A stretch of 27,094 nt of DNA from a virus. Within the stretch, counting starts at the first letter, position 1. The number at the start of each line of letters is the position of its first letter. The stretch is taken from positions 1 to 27,094 of IMG/VR virus record IMGVR_UViG_3300047553_000375. One strand, given 5' to 3'. The position numbers and the translations under genes are program-made. Positions 434 to 27,094 of the stretch are shown piece after piece. Under the pieces are notes generated by a model that did not search any database, was not told the origin of the DNA, and was given only the letters and a program-made list of their open reading frames with translations.

Positions 434-1702
434 CTAACTCTGTGAAGTTATGTTAAAATCCTTTTTAAAATGATGTAGCGTGTAATCTTTCTTATCCTTC
501 ACCCGCTTATATATCTTTGACTCAATTCCACCAATGGCAAATACCCAGTACACTTTTGCCGGCTTCGTTCTGTCTTTGCTCTGCAGCCTGGCTCTTGCCT
601 GCCAGTAGCTCACCGCACTAAAGTCAATGTTGTACATCACAAGGCAGTCAGCAGATGAAAGATTAATACCCTCACGGCCGGATTGTATCTGAGAGATGTA
701 GACAGCGTTCTCCCCGCTCATGTTAAAGCTCTCAGGAGTATCCACCACCCGCGTTCCGAACACTGAGCGTATGGCCATCTCTTCAGCTTTGAACTTGTAG
801 AAGATGGCAATCTTTTGCCCGGCAAATTTGTCACAAATATGCTCTGCTTTTGTGACATCAAATATCTGTGCAGTAGACTCACCGCTCTCCGTCTCATCTA
901 CTATCACAGTGCCGCTGTATATCTGCTGCAGCTTTGACATGACCTTGACCGCTGTGTCTGCCACCACAATACCTTCAGATGTGCGTAGTACTTTATCCTT
1001 GCGCAAACGATCAGCGGCGGTGTAGGTTTTATTAAGCATATACACCTTTATCACCTCCTCCTCCACCATCTGCTCAAAGCCTGCTTCCTCCTGCGTGAAC
1101 GATATGAACAGATGCTTGGTGTCGCGCTCTATCTTCTCCCGGTCTGCATTGGTGTAGTCATTTATTTCCCGGTTGTAGATGTACCGCTTCTTGACCGTAA
1201 CAAAATCCTTGGCCCATGCGTAAAAGTTCCGGAACTGCTTCCAAGGTGTATGGGCAGAGATGTATAGCTGATGATACAGCTGGCTCCATGACTCAGGAGT
1301 GGGAGTGCCGGAGAGCAGGATGAGCAGTCGGTTACCGACAATATTGCGCAGCTGCTTGGTACGTTCTGATGGCAAAGGAAAAGCCCCCAAACAGTGCGCC
1401 TCATCACAGATGACAAGGTCAAATTCTTCAATCTCTTCTGTAGTAAGCTTGTGCAGGCTCTCGTAGTTGATAAGGTCAAGCTCAAATGGGAACTTTACAG
1501 CTTCATAGTCCTTTTCAATGCTCGTCATAGCCTTCTTTCGTGTCACAAATAACACATTAAGAGCTTTGACCTTCTGCGCGATGGACAGGGCTGTAATAGT
1601 CTTGCCTGTACGCACCTCCATCGCAAGGTAGAGGATAGAGTGAGAGAGAAGCACCTCAGTGCCCCTCTCTACGATCTCACGCTGGTATGGTCTTAATTTC
1701 AT
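434..1702 (-). CDS. SNF2-like superfamily 2 DNA helicase/translocase
   Basis: An ATP-driven DNA translocase or helicase, probably working in phage replication or recombination. Counting from the longer start at 1720, visible motifs are: LRPYQ near the N-terminus; Walker A MEVRTGKT (34-41); DEAH box (106-109); SGTP motif III (137-140); motif V SGREGINLS (347-355); motif VI YWQARARLQ (372-380) with the arginine-finger region. At about 425 aa it contains only the two helicase domains with no added domain, like small phage SNF2 proteins. I prefer the start at 1702 (MKLRPYQ), because this motif usually lies right at the N-terminus; 1720 is also possible. Both overlap the end of the gene upstream. 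It is the last gene of the early operon, next to a RecB-like nuclease, and a terminator follows. Family call is sure; exact substrate is not. Confidence 0.9.
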   Translation of the reverse strand: MKLRPYQREIVERGTEVLLSHSILYLAMEVRTGKTITALSIAQKVKALNVLFVTRKKAMTSIEKDYEAVKFPFELDLINYESLHKLTTEEIEEFDLVICDEAHCLGAFPLPSERTKQLRNIVGNRLLILLSGTPTPESWSQLYHQLYISAHTPWKQFRNFYAWAKDFVTVKKRYIYNREINDYTNADREKIERDTKHLFISFTQEEAGFEQMVEEEVIKVYMLNKTYTAADRLRKDKVLRTSEGIVVADTAVKVMSKLQQIYSGTVIVDETESGESTAQIFDVTKAEHICDKFAGQKIAIFYKFKAEEMAIRSVFGTRVVDTPESFNMSGENAVYISQIQSGREGINLSSADCLVMYNIDFSAVSYWQARARLQSKDRTKPAKVYWVFAIGGIESKIYKRVKDKKDYTLHHFKKDFNITSQS

Positions 1703-2201
1703 CGTGCAGTATTTTGACAAATTCGTAGATGAGATCAGCCAGCTCTTTGTTCTTGGTGCGATGGATTATGACATAGTCATTCTCTTCCTCGTCTTCCCCC
1801 GGCTTGGGGTTATAGAAGTCGCAGTGAATGTCATAATTCACAGACAGGTCAGGCTCAAACAAAGGTATCAGCTGCACGCCCGTCCACTCTCTTCCTTTCT
1901 GAAAGCAGCATGATATAAGCTCTGCCATGTCTTCGGCCTGTACATGTCCCATGACACCGATAAACTCAAGAATGATATTCGTCTGTACGAAGCAATACTT
2001 TGCTCGCTGCTTTATCTCTGGATGGCCTTGTAAAAGCTTTACAGCATCCATAAGGCTATCAGCTGCATATCTGCCGGTGTGCATGTGAGCGTAGCTGTAC
2101 CTGGCATTCATAACGCGTGGCACTCCGGTGATGGTGTTCTCGATCTGCTCAAGCTTATTGAACCACCCGCGCGGCATTCTTTCGATGATCTGGTGACTCA
2201 T
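1677..2201 (-). CDS. Hypothetical protein between nuclease and helicase
   Basis: A 174-aa protein I do not recognise. The start at 2201 (MSHQIIERMPRG) overlaps the nuclease stop in an ATGA arrangement (2198-2201). The longer frame starting at 2273 would read through a CA-rich stretch and is unlikely. The sequence looks soluble and globular, with an acidic run (PGEDEEEND) near residues 136-144 and no membrane segment. Its 3' end overlaps the helicase start. Tight coupling to a nuclease and a helicase suggests a part in DNA metabolism, but this is inference from context only. Confidence 0.75.
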   Translation of the reverse strand: MSHQIIERMPRGWFNKLEQIENTITGVPRVMNARYSYAHMHTGRYAADSLMDAVKLLQGHPEIKQRAKYCFVQTNIILEFIGVMGHVQAEDMAELISCCFQKGREWTGVQLIPLFEPDLSVNYDIHCDFYNPKPGEDEEENDYVIIHRTKNKELADLIYEFVKILHDEIKTIPA

Positions 2202-2947
2202 TTGCTTTCTTTTTTGTGTGTGAGTGTGTATGAAGCTTTCTTCGGCCTTGCATCTTTGTTCTGCTCCTGCCACAGGTCCATAGTCTTGATGAACAGGCTC
2301 ATCTCTTTAGCACTGTCACGCTGAGCCACCAGCTGCCACCCCTGCCCTTGTATCGCCCCAATTTTGCCCTCTGTTCGGGTCTTTGCGTTCAGGTGAAGTA
2401 TTCCTATCATGTTGACCTCTATGCCCATCTGTGAACGCAGGAGCTCCCTGTAAGCGGCAAGTTGCAGCCAGTACTGGTCGTGTATGACATTGGATGTCTT
2501 TATGTCGATAAGGTATCTGAGGCCATTCAGCTCAATCACCCGGTCAAGCGTTCCTGCGAAGCCTAAAAATGGGCTGACAATATTCTGCTCACTCATTACG
2601 ATCTTAGGCTTGAACTTGTTGCAGAATTCAACATACCGCTCAAACATGCTCCATTCAAGCATCTTGTACTGCAAATTCCCGTCAGTGTTCAGCAGGCTGA
2701 CCTCTTCGCCATTGTCATACATCTCGGTAAGCTGATGCACGACTGAACCTCTGCGGCCGGCCTCATCCCTGATAGCATCGGCATCAGTGCCGACTTCTTT
2801 GAGCCACTTGTAAAAGTGGGCATCTTTAGGGTAGGCTTCCAGAATGGTGGTGACGGATGGGACGAAGTCCCCGTGCTCGGTGTAATAAAACCTTGCATCC
2901 AGCATGGTCAGCTGTTTGCTTTGTAGGTCAATGATAAATTTACTCAT
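2198..2947 (-). CDS. PD-(D/E)XK nuclease, RecB/Cas4-like
   Basis: A probable DNA exonuclease of the PD-(D/E)XK superfamily. Motifs in order: RGSVVH with H71; E120; GTLDR with D135 (132-136); DIK (148-150) with K150; QLAAY (162-166). This is the layout of RecB-nuclease and Cas4-like domains: metal ligands H71, D135 and D148, catalytic K150, and the Q..Y motif. No C-terminal cysteine cluster is seen, so an iron-sulphur Cas4 is unlikely. Length 249 aa fits phage single-domain versions. The start at 2947 is supported by the leader AAACACAC directly against the ATG. It probably acts with the SSB-like protein and the helicase in recombination or end processing. Confidence 0.85.
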   Translation of the reverse strand: MSKFIIDLQSKQLTMLDARFYYTEHGDFVPSVTTILEAYPKDAHFYKWLKEVGTDADAIRDEAGRRGSVVHQLTEMYDNGEEVSLLNTDGNLQYKMLEWSMFERYVEFCNKFKPKIVMSEQNIVSPFLGFAGTLDRVIELNGLRYLIDIKTSNVIHDQYWLQLAAYRELLRSQMGIEVNMIGILHLNAKTRTEGKIGAIQGQGWQLVAQRDSAKEMSLFIKTMDLWQEQNKDARPKKASYTLTHKKESK

Positions 2948-18930: not shown

Positions 18931-19574
18931 TTTGGCAATACTGTCACATTTGGCGGCTGGTTAACATGCTGCCCAATATCTGACGGCTCTGAATAGCTGC
19001 CCATCACACCAATAAACTTCTTATGCGGCATTGCCTCCGCTATCTGCCGGAGGATATGGCCGCCCTTGTTTTGGTCAAGATTAATGAGTGTGATCGCTTC
19101 GTTGTACGATGGGTCAACATTGGTGTCATAATGCCGCCAGTCTACAGGAGGAGGCACCACGATGCTGTCATGTTTATATCCCAGCTGCTCCTTTGCCCAT
19201 TCGCTGTTGTAGACAATGTACTGAGGCCTGTCAGCCATGACAATGCGTCCATATGTGGATGTATTGTGAATCAGATGGAAGATGGGTTTCTTCATCACCT
19301 CCCCCATTCCAATAGTCCAGTCAGTGTAATCCAGATGTGTCATCACCGCATCGGACCACCAGAAAAGCTTCTCAATCACCATCTGCTCAGGAGGGAACAC
19401 ATCAATGCCGTCATAGACATACATGCTGTTTATGTGGTAGTGCCGTGCCTGGTGGAGCAATATCCTCACATCGCCGCCGTTGCCCTGTATGTCCTTGTTT
19501 ATCCAATGAGCCATAAACTCTGCACCGCATGTGTGCTGTGGTGGGTAAAGATGGATGCTGTTTAAGAGCTTCAT
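18747..19574 (-). CDS. GT4 glycosyltransferase, N-terminal part (frameshifted)
   Basis: The first 215 codons encode the acceptor-side half of a GT-B glycosyltransferase: MKLLNSIHLYPPQHTCGAEF at the start, PIFHLIHNTSTYGR, YIVYNSEWAKEQLG and VVPPPVDWRHYDT, then ITLINLDQNKGG at the start of the second domain. After PPNVTVLPK the real protein continues in the -1 frame; the tail in this frame (QMTLKRFIARQG and on to 18747) is not protein-like. The ATG overlaps the methyltransferase stop (ATGA at 19571-19574). The break lies at GCC AAAA C, so a lost A, a sequencing error or a real -1 frameshift are all possible. The likely role is sugar transfer to a virion or cell-surface target. Confidence 0.8.
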   Translation of the reverse strand: MKLLNSIHLYPPQHTCGAEFMAHWINKDIQGNGGDVRILLHQARHYHINSMYVYDGIDVFPPEQMVIEKLFWWSDAVMTHLDYTDWTIGMGEVMKKPIFHLIHNTSTYGRIVMADRPQYIVYNSEWAKEQLGYKHDSIVVPPPVDWRHYDTNVDPSYNEAITLINLDQNKGGHILRQIAEAMPHKKFIGVMGSYSEPSDIGQHVNQPPNVTVLPKQMTLKRFIARQGYLSCHQSMRAGGERLQRPCAAAYRSYPLALLAFGRIAARQAFILTGTK

Positions 19575-20119
19575 TGCTTGGTGATTTTAACGACAAGCAT
19601 CATGTACCCCATGTCATCCTGACTCCCGTCTTTTATCACCTCAAGGCCTGCCATGCCAAAAAAGTCAGTAAAGTGCCATAGGCTCTTGTGCCGCTCAAAT
19701 TCGTTGCCATATGCCGCTCCCTGCTCTATCCATACAGCAGGAGTAGATATGAGCAGGATGCCACCTTTCTGCAAGCATGAGAGGCATTGCTGTATAACTG
19801 CATGACCTTCGTCCTTGTCGAAGTGCTCAAGAACATCAGTCATCAGTATGCAGTCGAATTGCGCGGGAGTCTGAAGGAAGTGTGCAATATCTTGCACATA
19901 TACTTGATCGTAACATTGCCATAGTGGTGAGGCATAATCCTTGAATCCCTCCACGCCGACCAGGTGGGTCCTGTATGGCCTGACACCAAGGTCAAGCCAG
20001 TTCCTCACTCCGGCTCCATTGATGCCGTGGCCTATACCAAGGTCAAGCACTGACTTAGGAGAATGCATCAGGACCTGACGCATAATGTCCCTAAATGAAG
20101 AATAAGAGCCGATAGGCAT
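19571..20119 (-). CDS. Class I SAM-dependent methyltransferase
   Basis: A 182-aa small-molecule-type methyltransferase. Motif I VLDLGIGHGING (24-35) binds AdoMet; VGVEGF (54-59) holds the acidic residue E57 at the end of strand 2; ILMTDVLEHF (91-100) is motif II/post-I; GGILLIST (119-126) is motif III. DVLEHF and the HKSLWHFT stretch are usual in sugar or natural-product O/N-methyltransferases, not DNA ones. The start at 20119 follows a CA-repeat leader; the frame from 20158 would start inside a terminator hairpin. Translationally coupled with the glycosyltransferase, so both probably build or modify one glycan. Confidence 0.85.
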   Translation of the reverse strand: MPIGSYSSFRDIMRQVLMHSPKSVLDLGIGHGINGAGVRNWLDLGVRPYRTHLVGVEGFKDYASPLWQCYDQVYVQDIAHFLQTPAQFDCILMTDVLEHFDKDEGHAVIQQCLSCLQKGGILLISTPAVWIEQGAAYGNEFERHKSLWHFTDFFGMAGLEVIKDGSQDDMGYMMLVVKITKQ

Positions 20120-20139
20120 AGTGTGTGTTTTGTGTGTGT
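20120..20139 (-). promoter_or_regulatory. CA-repeat leader of the methyltransferase
   Basis: Minus strand: ACACACACAAAACACACACT directly against the ATG at 20119. Two CA tracts with an AAA between them. It follows the terminator after the capsid gene. Confidence 0.65.
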
Positions 20140-20143
20140 AAAG

Positions 20144-20174
20144 AAAAGGGAGAGGCAATTAAGCCCCTCCCCTT
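20144..20174 (-). terminator. Terminator after the major capsid gene
   Basis: On the minus strand AAGGGGAGGGGC, loop TTAATT, GCCTCTCCCTTT form about 12 bp with two wobble pairs, followed by TCTTT. It lies just after the capsid stop codon and before the methyltransferase. Confidence 0.75.
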
Positions 20175-23458: not shown

Positions 23459-24834
23459 AGCTGCCCAAGGTTTTCACCGCCGCTCAAGTCCATAGCCGCC
23501 TGGTCAATCGGTATCATACCCTGTGCAATGTATGCACTGTCAAACGCCCCACCCTTCGGCTCGTAGTTCATCGCTACTCTCTTTTCGTCAAATGTCAACC
23601 AGTCAGCGGAGCGGAGGCTATTGACCATCTTCTCCATGTCGCGCTGCAGTTCAGGCAGAGCCATGATGTCAAAGTCAATGAAAACATTCTTATCTCCCAT
23701 CCTGGGCACCAGCCACCTGTTCAGCTCATCACGAAGCTGAGCGCACATGGGCACGATTGTATTCGTCACAAGGTCACGCAGTGCATTCTGATAGTTGTTG
23801 TCGGCCATGTTGTCAGCACTAAACAGCACCACAGGCATACTGAACACCCGGCACCATTGTTCAAGGCTGAACTTCAGCGTATCAACAAGAGCCATCTCTG
23901 AACTTGTCAAACCGAAATTCAGGAACTCCCACGGAGTCTGCAACATAGCAACCTGGCCATAACGGTCGTTATTGTTTACCCTGTCCGTCAATGCCCTCTG
24001 CATGTTGGCTGCTGTCTTCTCATCAACCAAGGGAATCTGGTTGCCCACTGCTTTGGGCACAAGCGCACCCTTTGCGCCTCCATTGGCCATAAGCTTTGCA
24101 GCTGCAAGGCTTGCCTCTTTACCCATCAGGTAGTTATTCCAGGCAGCCTTTATCGGAGATACACCACGCAAATGCACGCGGGTAACAGAGTCGAATTGCG
24201 GATTCCAGCTCTTCCATTGCAGCACATCACTCTTCTGCAGTGCTATGTTTCCGGTGGCACTTGTCAGATACCATCCTGCAATGCCGAACAGGTCGTTCGG
24301 GTCAGCGACAATGTCCATGAACTGGCTTGGCATGATGAGCAGCTCAGTGAACTGCCCTTCATCTACACTGCCATCGTTGCCCCACATGATGCCTTCGCCT
24401 GTCAGGAATCGCATGCCGAATAGCTGTTCAAAGAACTGGTCTTGCCCCTGATACCCGTTTGGCTTCTTGAGCAGCGCAGCCGTTGGACTATTATCCACGA
24501 TCATCTCCTCGTCATATGCTGCCTTCCTCTCTGCAATGGCTCGGTCAAGTGCGCCCGGATGCCCAAGGCCTTTCGTCAGTTGCTTATACCTTTCAAGGCT
24601 TACCCGTGCCTTTGCCCCGCTCTTCTTCTCGTACACATACCACGGAATAGATGCGGCCTTACGCGCAAGGAAGCTGACAATGGCATACACATCGGCATTA
24701 TCCTCGTAAGCCTGGGTATACTTCTTGCTGTTAAACTGGGTAAGTATCTGCCCTTGGTTGACAGGGACTATGCCGTAATTGGCAGTTGCAGGGTTCAAGC
24801 CTTTGCGTCTCAGGATACGGTCAAGTATGCTCAT
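23455..24834 (-). CDS. Portal protein, HK97 family
   Basis: A 459-aa portal subunit, the ring through which DNA enters the head. Start at 24834 (MSILDRILRRKG) overlaps the terminase stop in ATGA; the ATG at 24846 is less likely. Family pattern: AIVSFLARKAASIPWYVYEK near residue 55, LLKKPNGYQGQDQFFEQLFG, MRFLTGEGIMWGN, GWYLTSATGNIALQKSDVLQ, GVSPIKAAWNNYLMG, and the C-terminal helix region with FSMPVVLFSADNMADNNY, LRDELNRWLVPRM. A normal length for the family. Confidence 0.92.
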   Translation of the reverse strand: MSILDRILRRKGLNPATANYGIVPVNQGQILTQFNSKKYTQAYEDNADVYAIVSFLARKAASIPWYVYEKKSGAKARVSLERYKQLTKGLGHPGALDRAIAERKAAYDEEMIVDNSPTAALLKKPNGYQGQDQFFEQLFGMRFLTGEGIMWGNDGSVDEGQFTELLIMPSQFMDIVADPNDLFGIAGWYLTSATGNIALQKSDVLQWKSWNPQFDSVTRVHLRGVSPIKAAWNNYLMGKEASLAAAKLMANGGAKGALVPKAVGNQIPLVDEKTAANMQRALTDRVNNNDRYGQVAMLQTPWEFLNFGLTSSEMALVDTLKFSLEQWCRVFSMPVVLFSADNMADNNYQNALRDLVTNTIVPMCAQLRDELNRWLVPRMGDKNVFIDFDIMALPELQRDMEKMVNSLRSADWLTFDEKRVAMNYEPKGGAFDSAYIAQGMIPIDQAAMDLSGGENLGQL

Positions 24835-26000
24835 AGTACTCCCCAAGTGAGCCTGGGCTGTTTTAGTTTTGTGAATACGGCATATCGCATGGCATCTACA
24901 AGGTGGTCATCCATCTTGACCGGCTCCTTGTCGATTACCTTCCCATTCATGTCAGTCTTCCACTTATATTTTCTCAATTCGTTCAGAAGGTTGGTGCTGC
25001 TGGCCGTTACGTACAAAGGTAATGACTTCACTTTCATGATACCTGCATACACATCCTTGTCGGCAGGCTTGACATTTAGCCCCGCACGATAAAGCTCTTC
25101 GATGGTCTTTGGCTCTGCCGCATCGCAGTAAATCTCAGCCATATGGTCAAGCACCTTGTCGGGTATGATCTCTATCAATTCGCCAGTAGTTACACCCGAT
25201 TGATAGTACATCTCATGCACATAGATGCACTCATCAGCCAGCGTCACCCTGACCATTGCAGTCGGGTTGCGATATCCAAAGTCAAGGCCATAGAATACCT
25301 CTCCCTGCGGGACACTGTCAACCACCTTGAAGTGTGTGTAAATCTGCTCCTGGCTCGCTCCCCTCTCCCCAAGACCGAAGACCTTCCACATCATCGGGTC
25401 TGCATCCTGATAGCCTTCAATGACCTTGCGCTGTGGTGCAGGTAAAAATGCATTGTCCTGATAGGTTGAATGAATCTTAACCGCATCATCGGAGTCAGCC
25501 AAGTGATAACACCAGATGTCAAAGTCAGACGGGTTCAGGTCTGTGATGACCTTGAACCGCGTCCGCATGTCAAGCTGGTCAAAGAGTGCTTTGCTTAACA
25601 GATTCGCCTCATTGCAAAATAGCAGGTCCCTGCCTGGACCCTTTGCCCGGTCATGGTCCTCAAGGCCGAAGAACTCCACATATGATCCACTGTCGAAATG
25701 GTAGATGTTGTCGGTCTTGTTATGCATTGACTCATCGTACCACTCCCATGACTCAAGAATGTCAAAGAAGTCGCGCATGGCCCCACGCTTTAGGTGCGGA
25801 AGGGAGTGGCTCACCACGCTGATCTTCTTCTTGCTGTTATTCGTCCCCCACCATATCAGACATTGCATGATGCCATAGGTCTTGCCTGACCTTGCACCAC
25901 CCTCATGGCAGATGTACCTGTGCTGGCCACCCAAAGCCTTTGCCGTCAGCCGTGCCGGCCGGTTCAACCTAACCCTGATCTCCTGACTCGTCTGACTCAA
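24831..26000 (-). CDS. Terminase large subunit
   Basis: A 389-aa DNA-packaging motor of the PBSX/Terminase_3 type. ATPase: Walker A GGARSGKT (34-41), Walker B LLFCNEAN (126-133, E131 catalytic) and the coupling motif TDLNP (153-157). Nuclease: FYGLDFGY (D240), YCDAAEP (D293) and DDHLVDAMRYA (D365/D369). All catalytic residues are in place. Its start lies 32 bases inside the end of the small-terminase-like gene. It packages DNA into proheads made by the next genes. Confidence 0.96.
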   Translation of the reverse strand: MSQTSQEIRVRLNRPARLTAKALGGQHRYICHEGGARSGKTYGIMQCLIWWGTNNSKKKISVVSHSLPHLKRGAMRDFFDILESWEWYDESMHNKTDNIYHFDSGSYVEFFGLEDHDRAKGPGRDLLFCNEANLLSKALFDQLDMRTRFKVITDLNPSDFDIWCYHLADSDDAVKIHSTYQDNAFLPAPQRKVIEGYQDADPMMWKVFGLGERGASQEQIYTHFKVVDSVPQGEVFYGLDFGYRNPTAMVRVTLADECIYVHEMYYQSGVTTGELIEIIPDKVLDHMAEIYCDAAEPKTIEELYRAGLNVKPADKDVYAGIMKVKSLPLYVTASSTNLLNELRKYKWKTDMNGKVIDKEPVKMDDHLVDAMRYAVFTKLKQPRLTWGVL

Positions 26001-26331
26001 AGATTACCTTTTTATGCGACAGATTGACATCTGCATTGACCTTCTGAGTGTTCAGCCGGGCCAGTTCATCGTCAGATGACAGTAGCTTAAACTCAGCTAT
26101 CTGCAGCGTGGCATTGTCACTGTTCCTCCAGTTACGGCGCATCTTTTTTTTGATGGCAGTCTTTTGTGCCTCTATGGCCTTCTTTATGTCTTCGTCTTTA
26201 TTGAGTTCATGAGTGTACAAGGTAGCTATGTGAGCCTTCATGTACAGGTGAATCTCTCCGAAGGTTGTAATCTCCTCCCGGTCGATTATTTCTAAAGCCT
26301 GACGCTTTAGTTCGTCTCTATCGTATGCCAT
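25969..26331 (-). CDS. Probable terminase small subunit
   Basis: A 120-aa protein immediately upstream of, and overlapping, the large terminase, the usual place of the DNA-recognising small subunit. It is highly charged and mostly helical: MAYDRDELKRQALEIIDREE, a helical stretch KDEDIKKAIEAQKTAIKKKM, and ATLQIAEFKLLSSDDELARL, which resembles the helical oligomer part of small terminases (typical phrase on many: ADWKLLEKRSKDEW...). No clear helix-turn-helix is seen. Assignment rests on position and general type. Confidence 0.6.
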   Translation of the reverse strand: MAYDRDELKRQALEIIDREEITTFGEIHLYMKAHIATLYTHELNKDEDIKKAIEAQKTAIKKKMRRNWRNSDNATLQIAEFKLLSSDDELARLNTQKVNADVNLSHKKVIFESDESGDQG

Positions 26332-26332
26332 G

Positions 26333-26773
26333 TCACAAATTTACACCATTGTCATGCACCTGAAAGTCATGCCCCCACTTTGACAGCTTAGATGTCAATT
26401 CCAGTAGTTGGTCAGGATGTACGTCAATAGTGACAGTTATGCCCTTCCTGGCTGTCTGATCAAGCTTACGCATCACCTCGTTAGTCATGCTTATGACAAT
26501 TTCGTCTCCGACGCTTGCTAAATCGTTTAAGTTTTCGATTGCATGTATAACCGTGGTATGATGCCTTACTTTACCATTTGACGCCTCAAATAGCCTCGCA
26601 GACGCGCTAAATGTCATCCCGAAGATATCCCGTGCTACCTTGTAGCCGATGGCTCTTGCCATTACTGTGTGCCTCTCGCGGCTTCTGCTCATTAGTTTAG
26701 CCCGGCTAATGCTGAAGGTCTGGCATAGTGTGTCAACCAGTAGCTCTCTGTTCTCTTGTGTGTTTAGTATCAT
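26333..26773 (-). CDS. Stand-alone DnaA domain IV-like DNA-binding protein
   Basis: A 146-aa protein. Residues about 8-86 look like the DNA-binding domain IV of the replication initiator DnaA: FSISRAKLMSRSRERHTVMA (20-39), ARAIGYKVARDIFGMTF, then the signature GKVRHHTTVIHAIENL (67-82), close to G-RDHTTVIHA of DnaA. There is no AAA+ domain. The last 55 residues are unknown. It sits just before the terminase genes and starts in the stop of the 68-aa gene. It may bind DnaA-box-like sites to control replication or packaging, or regulate late genes; in this position it could also be a terminase-type recogniser. Domain call is strong, role is open. Confidence 0.8.
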   Translation of the reverse strand: MILNTQENRELLVDTLCQTFSISRAKLMSRSRERHTVMARAIGYKVARDIFGMTFSASARLFEASNGKVRHHTTVIHAIENLNDLASVGDEIVISMTNEVMRKLDQTARKGITVTIDVHPDQLLELTSKLSKWGHDFQVHDNGVNL

Positions 26774-26976
26774 AGTTCAAGTTTTACGCGTGGCTTTGTT
26801 ATCTCTCCGGTCTCAAGGTTTGCCACCCACCATCTGGGAGTGGTGCTGACATACTTCAGTGGCTGGTCCTCTAAAAATTTCATGAATGCCATTAATGCCT
26901 GCTCTTCTGTAAACGGCCCCCTGGCTAAAACTTTGTCCGGAGTAACCTCAAGTAGTACAATGTTCATCTTGCTCAT
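26770..26976 (-). CDS. Small hypothetical protein, first gene of the late module
   Basis: A 68-aa protein (MSKMNIVLLEVTPDKVLARG and on) that I do not recognise. The pattern of strands and helices (N-terminal strand, helix EEQALMAFMKFLED, C-terminal strands WWVANLETGEI) suggests a compact alpha/beta fold. It has a C/A-rich leader (CCAAAAACCAAACACC) before the ATG and overlaps the DnaA-like gene by ATGA. It follows the AT-rich upstream region that likely holds the late promoter. Confidence 0.6.
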   Translation of the reverse strand: MSKMNIVLLEVTPDKVLARGPFTEEQALMAFMKFLEDQPLKYVSTTPRWWVANLETGEITKPRVKLEL

Positions 26977-27094
26977 GGTGTTTGGTTTTTGGTTTTTCCC
27001 ACATTCCCACTTTATTTTCCTTTCTTATATACATATATACATGTATGTATGTATTTATTATATTTTATTACTTTTTTGTATATTAGTTATAAAT
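26977..27094 (-). promoter_or_regulatory. AT-rich upstream region with palindrome and TACA/TATG repeats
   Basis: 118 bases upstream of the first late gene with no gene. It is strongly AT-rich, with a perfect palindrome ATACATGTAT (27037-27046) inside a run of repeating TATG/TACA units, and a C/A-rich leader close to the ATG. No clear TTTG / TAnnTTTG promoter was found. It may hold a late promoter with a non-standard site and an operator. Confidence 0.4.

Follow-up and report, generated by a model that had tools for sequence, protein, structure and literature searches.

A free-standing DnaA domain IV encoded between the replication and terminase genes of a tailed phage

The DNA analyzed here, hereafter the window, is the stretch of 27,094 nucleotides from positions 1 to 27,094 of the IMG/VR virus record IMGVR_UViG_3300047553_000375, and it carries the terminase, portal, capsid, and tail genes of a tailed phage. 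Positions 26333..26773 (minus strand) hold an ATG-initiated gene for a 146-residue orphan DnaA domain IV protein, hereafter DnaA-C, which is kept in about 30 related viral contigs (loci designated L001, L003, and so on) and is therefore no chance open reading frame. It is followed by the gene for a putative small terminase of 120 residues (TerS; 25969..26331, minus strand), the member of a conserved family that precedes the terminase large subunit (TerL; 24831..26000, minus strand; Pfam Terminase_3/Terminase_3C). On its other side lies ORF68 (26770..26976, minus strand), a 68-residue frame with no family match that in most members shares the bases ATGA with the beginning of the DnaA-C gene. 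Beyond ORF68, an intergenic stretch of 22% G+C, recognized by comparison with relatives, runs to the contig end (26977..27094) and contains two copies of TTCCCAC, the weak type B repeat described below (26996..27002 and 27004..27010, plus strand). The opposite contig end encodes a SNF2/ResIII-type helicase, a replication or recombination gene (434..1720, minus strand), and a PD-(D/E)XK nuclease (2198..2947, minus strand). Elsewhere in the window, a SAM-dependent methyltransferase-like gene (19571–20158; Methyltransf_23) directly follows the major capsid gene.

The preliminary description of this DNA, made from the letters alone, read the protein as a DnaA domain IV without the AAA+ ATPase, and proposed profile comparison and structure prediction as checks; both return DnaA domain IV. 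The Pfam family Bac_DnaA_C (PF08299) matches the helix-turn-helix (HTH) region, residues 12–80 (26534..26740, minus strand), with an E-value of 1.7e-9 and 38 bits, above the curated cut-off of 31.5 bits. Full-length DnaA models of NCBIfam match with their C-terminal part alone (the last ~80–100 positions), far below their full-length cut-offs, and the 146-residue protein contains no AAA+ domain III and so is not a full-length DnaA initiator. An AlphaFold model built from 16 homologues has a mean pLDDT of 84.5, and its residues 2–109 superimpose on DnaA domain IV with Z scores of 15.1 (3pvp), 14.9 (1j1v), and 13.9 (8btg); the best non-DnaA structure reaches 5.7. A TrpR fold, the alternative raised at the outset, does not appear among the structural matches listed, in which DnaA is far ahead. 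The protein is thus securely a free-standing DnaA domain IV without AAA+ or helicase-loading domains. Its domain-IV fold spans residues ~3–109, and a short helix-containing tail makes up residues ~110–146. The C-terminal 55 residues had been called unlike DnaA: an unmatched tail does exist, but because the structural match reaches about residue 109 it is shorter, ~37–40 residues. The short strands that this model shows near the C-terminus are not kept in a second prediction, from 24 sequences, and we claim no fold for the tail.

In E. coli DnaA, bases are contacted by R399, P423, and residues 432–435 and 438–439 (PMC5043019, PMC7561715). The DnaA signature KVRHHTTVIHA, noted at the outset, is indeed present at residues 68–78 (26540..26572, minus strand), and alignment equates R70 with R432, H71 with D433, H72 with H434, T73 with T435, T74 with T436, I76 with L438, and H77 with H439; outside the signature, R40 corresponds to R399 and S56 to P423. 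Along with the fold (Z 15 over ~95 residues), the window protein shares with DnaA domain IV (PF08299; 1j1v, 3pvp) the equivalents of the basic-loop Arg399 and of His434, Thr435, Thr436, and His439. It differs in lacking domains I–III, in having Ser for Pro423 and His for the base-contacting Asp433, in an insertion of about five residues before the recognition helix, and in its extra tail of ~37 residues. Among 16 family members the equivalents of R399, H434, and T436 are invariant, and position 435 is T or S. At position 433 the window's clade and L011 carry His, and the L014/L015 and L024–L041 groups carry Asp; L073, L074, and L076 deviate from the signature in the alignment. The contact columns exceed the rest of the HTH in conservation by little more than chance would give (p 0.066). 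Judged by its modeled fold, the protein should bind DNA, but the site recognized by the version in the window may differ from the canonical box: given the changes at D433 and P423 in the window's clade, that box is possibly not read at all.

Phages were already known to encode orphan DnaA domain IV proteins, with records from pelagiphages (PMC6811365) and Polaribacter phages (PMC4615864), and the window protein adds a member. The pelagiphages HTVC010P, HTVC100P (gp21), Greip, and Skadi, of ~34–35 kb, likewise encode a free-standing domain IV, among their early genes and in several cases annotated 'DNA replication initiation'. Unlike the window protein, these have an N-terminal extension and no C-terminal tail, and their genes adjoin those of nucleases and annealing proteins rather than terminase; a pelagiphage orphan is 34% identical to the window protein over 73 residues. 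Free-standing domains IV also occur in Polaribacter phages P12002L/S, Freya, and Danklef, Cellulophaga phage phi19:1, and Rhizobium phage RHph_N28_2, with other tails and, where the neighborhood was read, with no adjacent terminase; the Polaribacter and Rhizobium genes read in this way lie among replication and recombination genes. Relatives in BFVD place stand-alone domains IV in many uncultured phages as well as in phi19:1. Of 24 family members, 16 match PHROG 16091 (unknown function), four PHROG 30669, and two PHROG 27829 (both replication initiation, DnaA-like) at E≤0.01; the window protein itself matches PHROG 16091 at E 0.033. L016 1119–1493, picked by eye as a divergent relative, was dropped (profile E 26, no Pfam match). 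The literature searched yielded annotations of phage orphan DnaA-C proteins and no functional papers. Polaribacter and Cellulophaga belong to the Bacteroidota. The closest cultured terminases are those of Parabacteroides and Phocaeicola phages (36% identity), and from this kinship a Bacteroidota host is likely for the window's phage; TerS and TerL alignments revealed no host or prophage in bacterial genomes.

Position directly before the likely small terminase had seemed odd for a replication factor. The gene does adjoin TerS, but the oddity arises from where the contig stops, which hides replication genes on the other side. In relatives the order is helicase, iteron region, ORF68, DnaA-C, TerS, and TerL: a primase-helicase gene of about 830–870 codons (Prim-Pol or DUF5906 matches) precedes the full AT-rich stretch of about 200–360 bases, which in turn precedes ORF68. 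In L048 and L049 a SNF2-type helicase and a PD-(D/E)XK nuclease come before the primase-helicase; their counterparts occupy the opposite end of the window, as expected of a map that is cut within the replication region. Taken together, this order and upstream context place the DnaA-C gene where the replication module meets the packaging module. The AT-rich stretch resembles a phage origin and promoter region, the origin being suggested by its iterons and A+T richness. ORF68 is the regular partner of DnaA-C in relatives, missing from the L014/L015/L022 group, and is possibly a functional partner as well.

Natural recombinants among these contigs separate DnaA-C from its neighbors on both sides. 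On the origin side, we compared loci with three main primase-helicase types: A (n=9; L003, L004, L008, L028, L038, L041, L076, L080, L081), B (n=11; L001, L009, L024, L026, L027, L029, L031, L058, L072–L074), and C (n=3; L014, L015, L022). Types A and B are at most 30% identical in their helicases. The hexamer AGTGCA occurs in 6–11 copies in the stretch of 9/9 type A loci, 0/11 of type B, and 0/3 of type C; CCATTA (4–8 copies) marks the three type C loci, TTCCCAC-like repeats most but not all type B loci, and AGTGCG the stretch of L011. Yet the DnaA-C HTH of L028 (type A, with AGTGCA iterons) is 93–97% identical to that of L027 and L029 (type B, without them), and the crossing is repeated in the pairs L038 (A)/L031 (B) and L008 (A)/L009 (B), each with near-identical DnaA-C proteins. 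As far as ORF68, the entire intergenic stretch goes with the helicase rather than with the DnaA-C allele. Iteron type likewise tracks helicase type regardless of that allele; the repeats thus belong to the primase-helicase, and the sequences present a clean case of modular exchange of helicase and origin. Co-segregation of iterons and helicase is perfect across distant types (L003 1505–1862, L028 7100–7343, L015 6979–7186, and equivalents).

The packaging side behaves similarly. L027, L028, and L032 have identical TerS HTHs (100%), yet the DnaA-C HTH of L032 is only 51–52% identical to those of L027 and L028. The HTH-like half of TerS is exchanged independently both of its own C-terminal half and of DnaA-C; in L004, TerS identity falls to 43% in the HTH with the C-terminal half at 97%. 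This division, an exchanged N-terminal half and a C-terminal half up to 97% identical, is seen in TerS of the window (25969–26331), L004 (2843–3211), and L022 (9995–10393). In L065 and L072–L080, the gene before TerL has no TerS profile match, and ORF68 and DnaA-C are kept where the contig reaches; the DnaA-C protein of L065 is almost unchanged from that of L038 beside an unrelated TerS. A ParB-N and N6/N4 DNA methyltransferase gene (L065 3495–4670) lies between DnaA-C and the replaced TerS. The DnaA-C genes of L102 and L111 stand 3.2–3.9 kb from the terminase genes, the L111 copy directly behind an HNH-like frame, and no DnaA-C was found beside the TerS relatives in L012, L013, L020, L021, and L103–L105.

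The DnaA-C protein itself is variable. Its HTH is 43–73% identical between phages whose ORF68 proteins are 84–99% identical (for L024 and L041, 44% and 99%); with synonymous sites close to saturation in many pairs, exchange of alleles cannot be distinguished from rapid evolution. ORF68 divergence values for L027 were left out owing to a missing residue or a frameshift in the contig: ORF68 there (1494–1700) lacks one residue and shows abnormal nonsynonymous divergence, possibly from a frameshift or assembly error. As for binding sites in phage DNA, TTATNCACA is absent from the window, where 1.4–1.5 copies are expected, and is near expectation in relatives; neither the window nor its relatives show DnaA-box enrichment or a cluster. 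No repeated word across ORF68, DnaA-C, and TerS consistently exceeds codon shuffles, and L048 and L049, with nearly the same DnaA-C protein, share no intergenic word of at least 8 bases. Lambda-O-like iterons inside the DnaA-C gene were also considered and rejected, none standing above codon shuffles.

These observations bear unequally on what the protein might do. A specific initiator of the phage iteron origin, comparable to lambda O or a plasmid Rep protein, would have the fold of an origin-binding domain and sit beside an AT-rich iteron stretch, as DnaA-C does. However, the iterons accompany the primase-helicase whatever the DnaA-C allele, no iterons co-vary with DnaA-C among the loci compared, and the gene contains no internal iterons of its own; this candidate was dropped on the helicase–iteron co-segregation, and the earlier suggestion that the protein loads replication on phage DNA at the iteron origin is opposed, leaving it a minimal likelihood. 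Scarcely more probable is recognition of packaging sites or partnership with TerS, also suggested earlier. The DnaA-C and TerS genes are adjacent in most relatives, overlapping or abutting, and are usually found together, but independent swaps of TerS, including non-homologous ones, make a packaging role very unlikely: DnaA-C stays when TerS is replaced by unrelated families or a methyltransferase intervenes, its own HTH differs beside an identical TerS HTH, and TerS relatives occur without it. Neither co-variation nor obligate linkage of the two was found, and the TerS swaps led us to drop this candidate too.

Two regulatory roles retain more weight. DnaA-C may be an accessory or regulator of phage replication that binds phage DNA near the origin at sites other than the helicase-matched iterons, modulates initiation or the early-to-late switch, and partners any primase-helicase. 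Its constant place beside the primase-helicase and origin-like stretch in the window's group, the replication and recombination genes that adjoin it in the Polaribacter, Rhizobium, and Pelagibacter phages and in L111, and PHROG relatives named replication initiation protein all favor this reading, which we consider possible, if on the unlikely side, as the stretch up to ORF68 follows the helicase and neither the three genes nor the intergenic DNA of L048 and L049 offers a repeated or common motif. In Firmicutes phages, the late-operon regulators RinA and ArpU have their genes immediately before that of the small terminase. A similar role in transcription of the late (packaging) operon would suit a lone HTH protein whose gene heads the terminase operon and which diverges as rapidly as is typical of phage regulators. 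We find it doubtful: the position fits the window's group but not L102 and L111, and the upstream promoter-bearing stretch is exchanged without the DnaA-C protein.

The reading we favor, with a probability of roughly 0.38, is that DnaA-C is a box-binding competitor or regulator of replication initiation that would act on host DnaA sites; its portability between phages with different origins and packaging systems inclines us this way. Like domain IV, it would bind DnaA-box-like double-stranded sites, but it would be incapable of assembling an ATP-dependent DnaA filament, of melting DNA, or of loading helicase; it would therefore compete or regulate at DnaA-type sites outside the exchanged phage modules. 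The likeliest targets would be sites on the host chromosome (oriC and DnaA-regulated promoters), and host initiation would be damped during phage replication, for which the phage would use an iteron origin and a primase-helicase of its own. The DnaA IV fold, the contact residues, the portability, the TerS swaps, and the absence of a TTATNCACA cluster from phage DNA are consistent with host competition, another of the functions suggested at the outset, and in other phages orphan DnaA-C genes also lie among early replication and recombination genes. Phage proteins that restrain host DnaA have precedents in lambda P and YfdR (PMC4776307). Against host competition, the gene is probably co-transcribed with terminase, given the overlapping or abutting frames, and thus later than expected of a host-shutoff gene; a protein aimed solely at the host DnaA box, itself highly conserved, would not be expected to diverge so rapidly; and the window's clade has His at D433 and Ser at P423. 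More tentatively, phages could use the detached domain IV family as a whole as weapons or decoys aimed at the DnaA boxes of their hosts; its members would for that reason be freely interchangeable among phages that differ in origin and packaging system.

Many phages encode orphan DnaA domain IV proteins, which are routinely labeled 'replication initiation protein DnaA'. The recombinants tell against the initiator label for the window's lineage, since the iterons belong to the primase-helicase, and phage pairs that differ only in the neighbors of DnaA-C make the alternative of a competitor or regulator directly testable.
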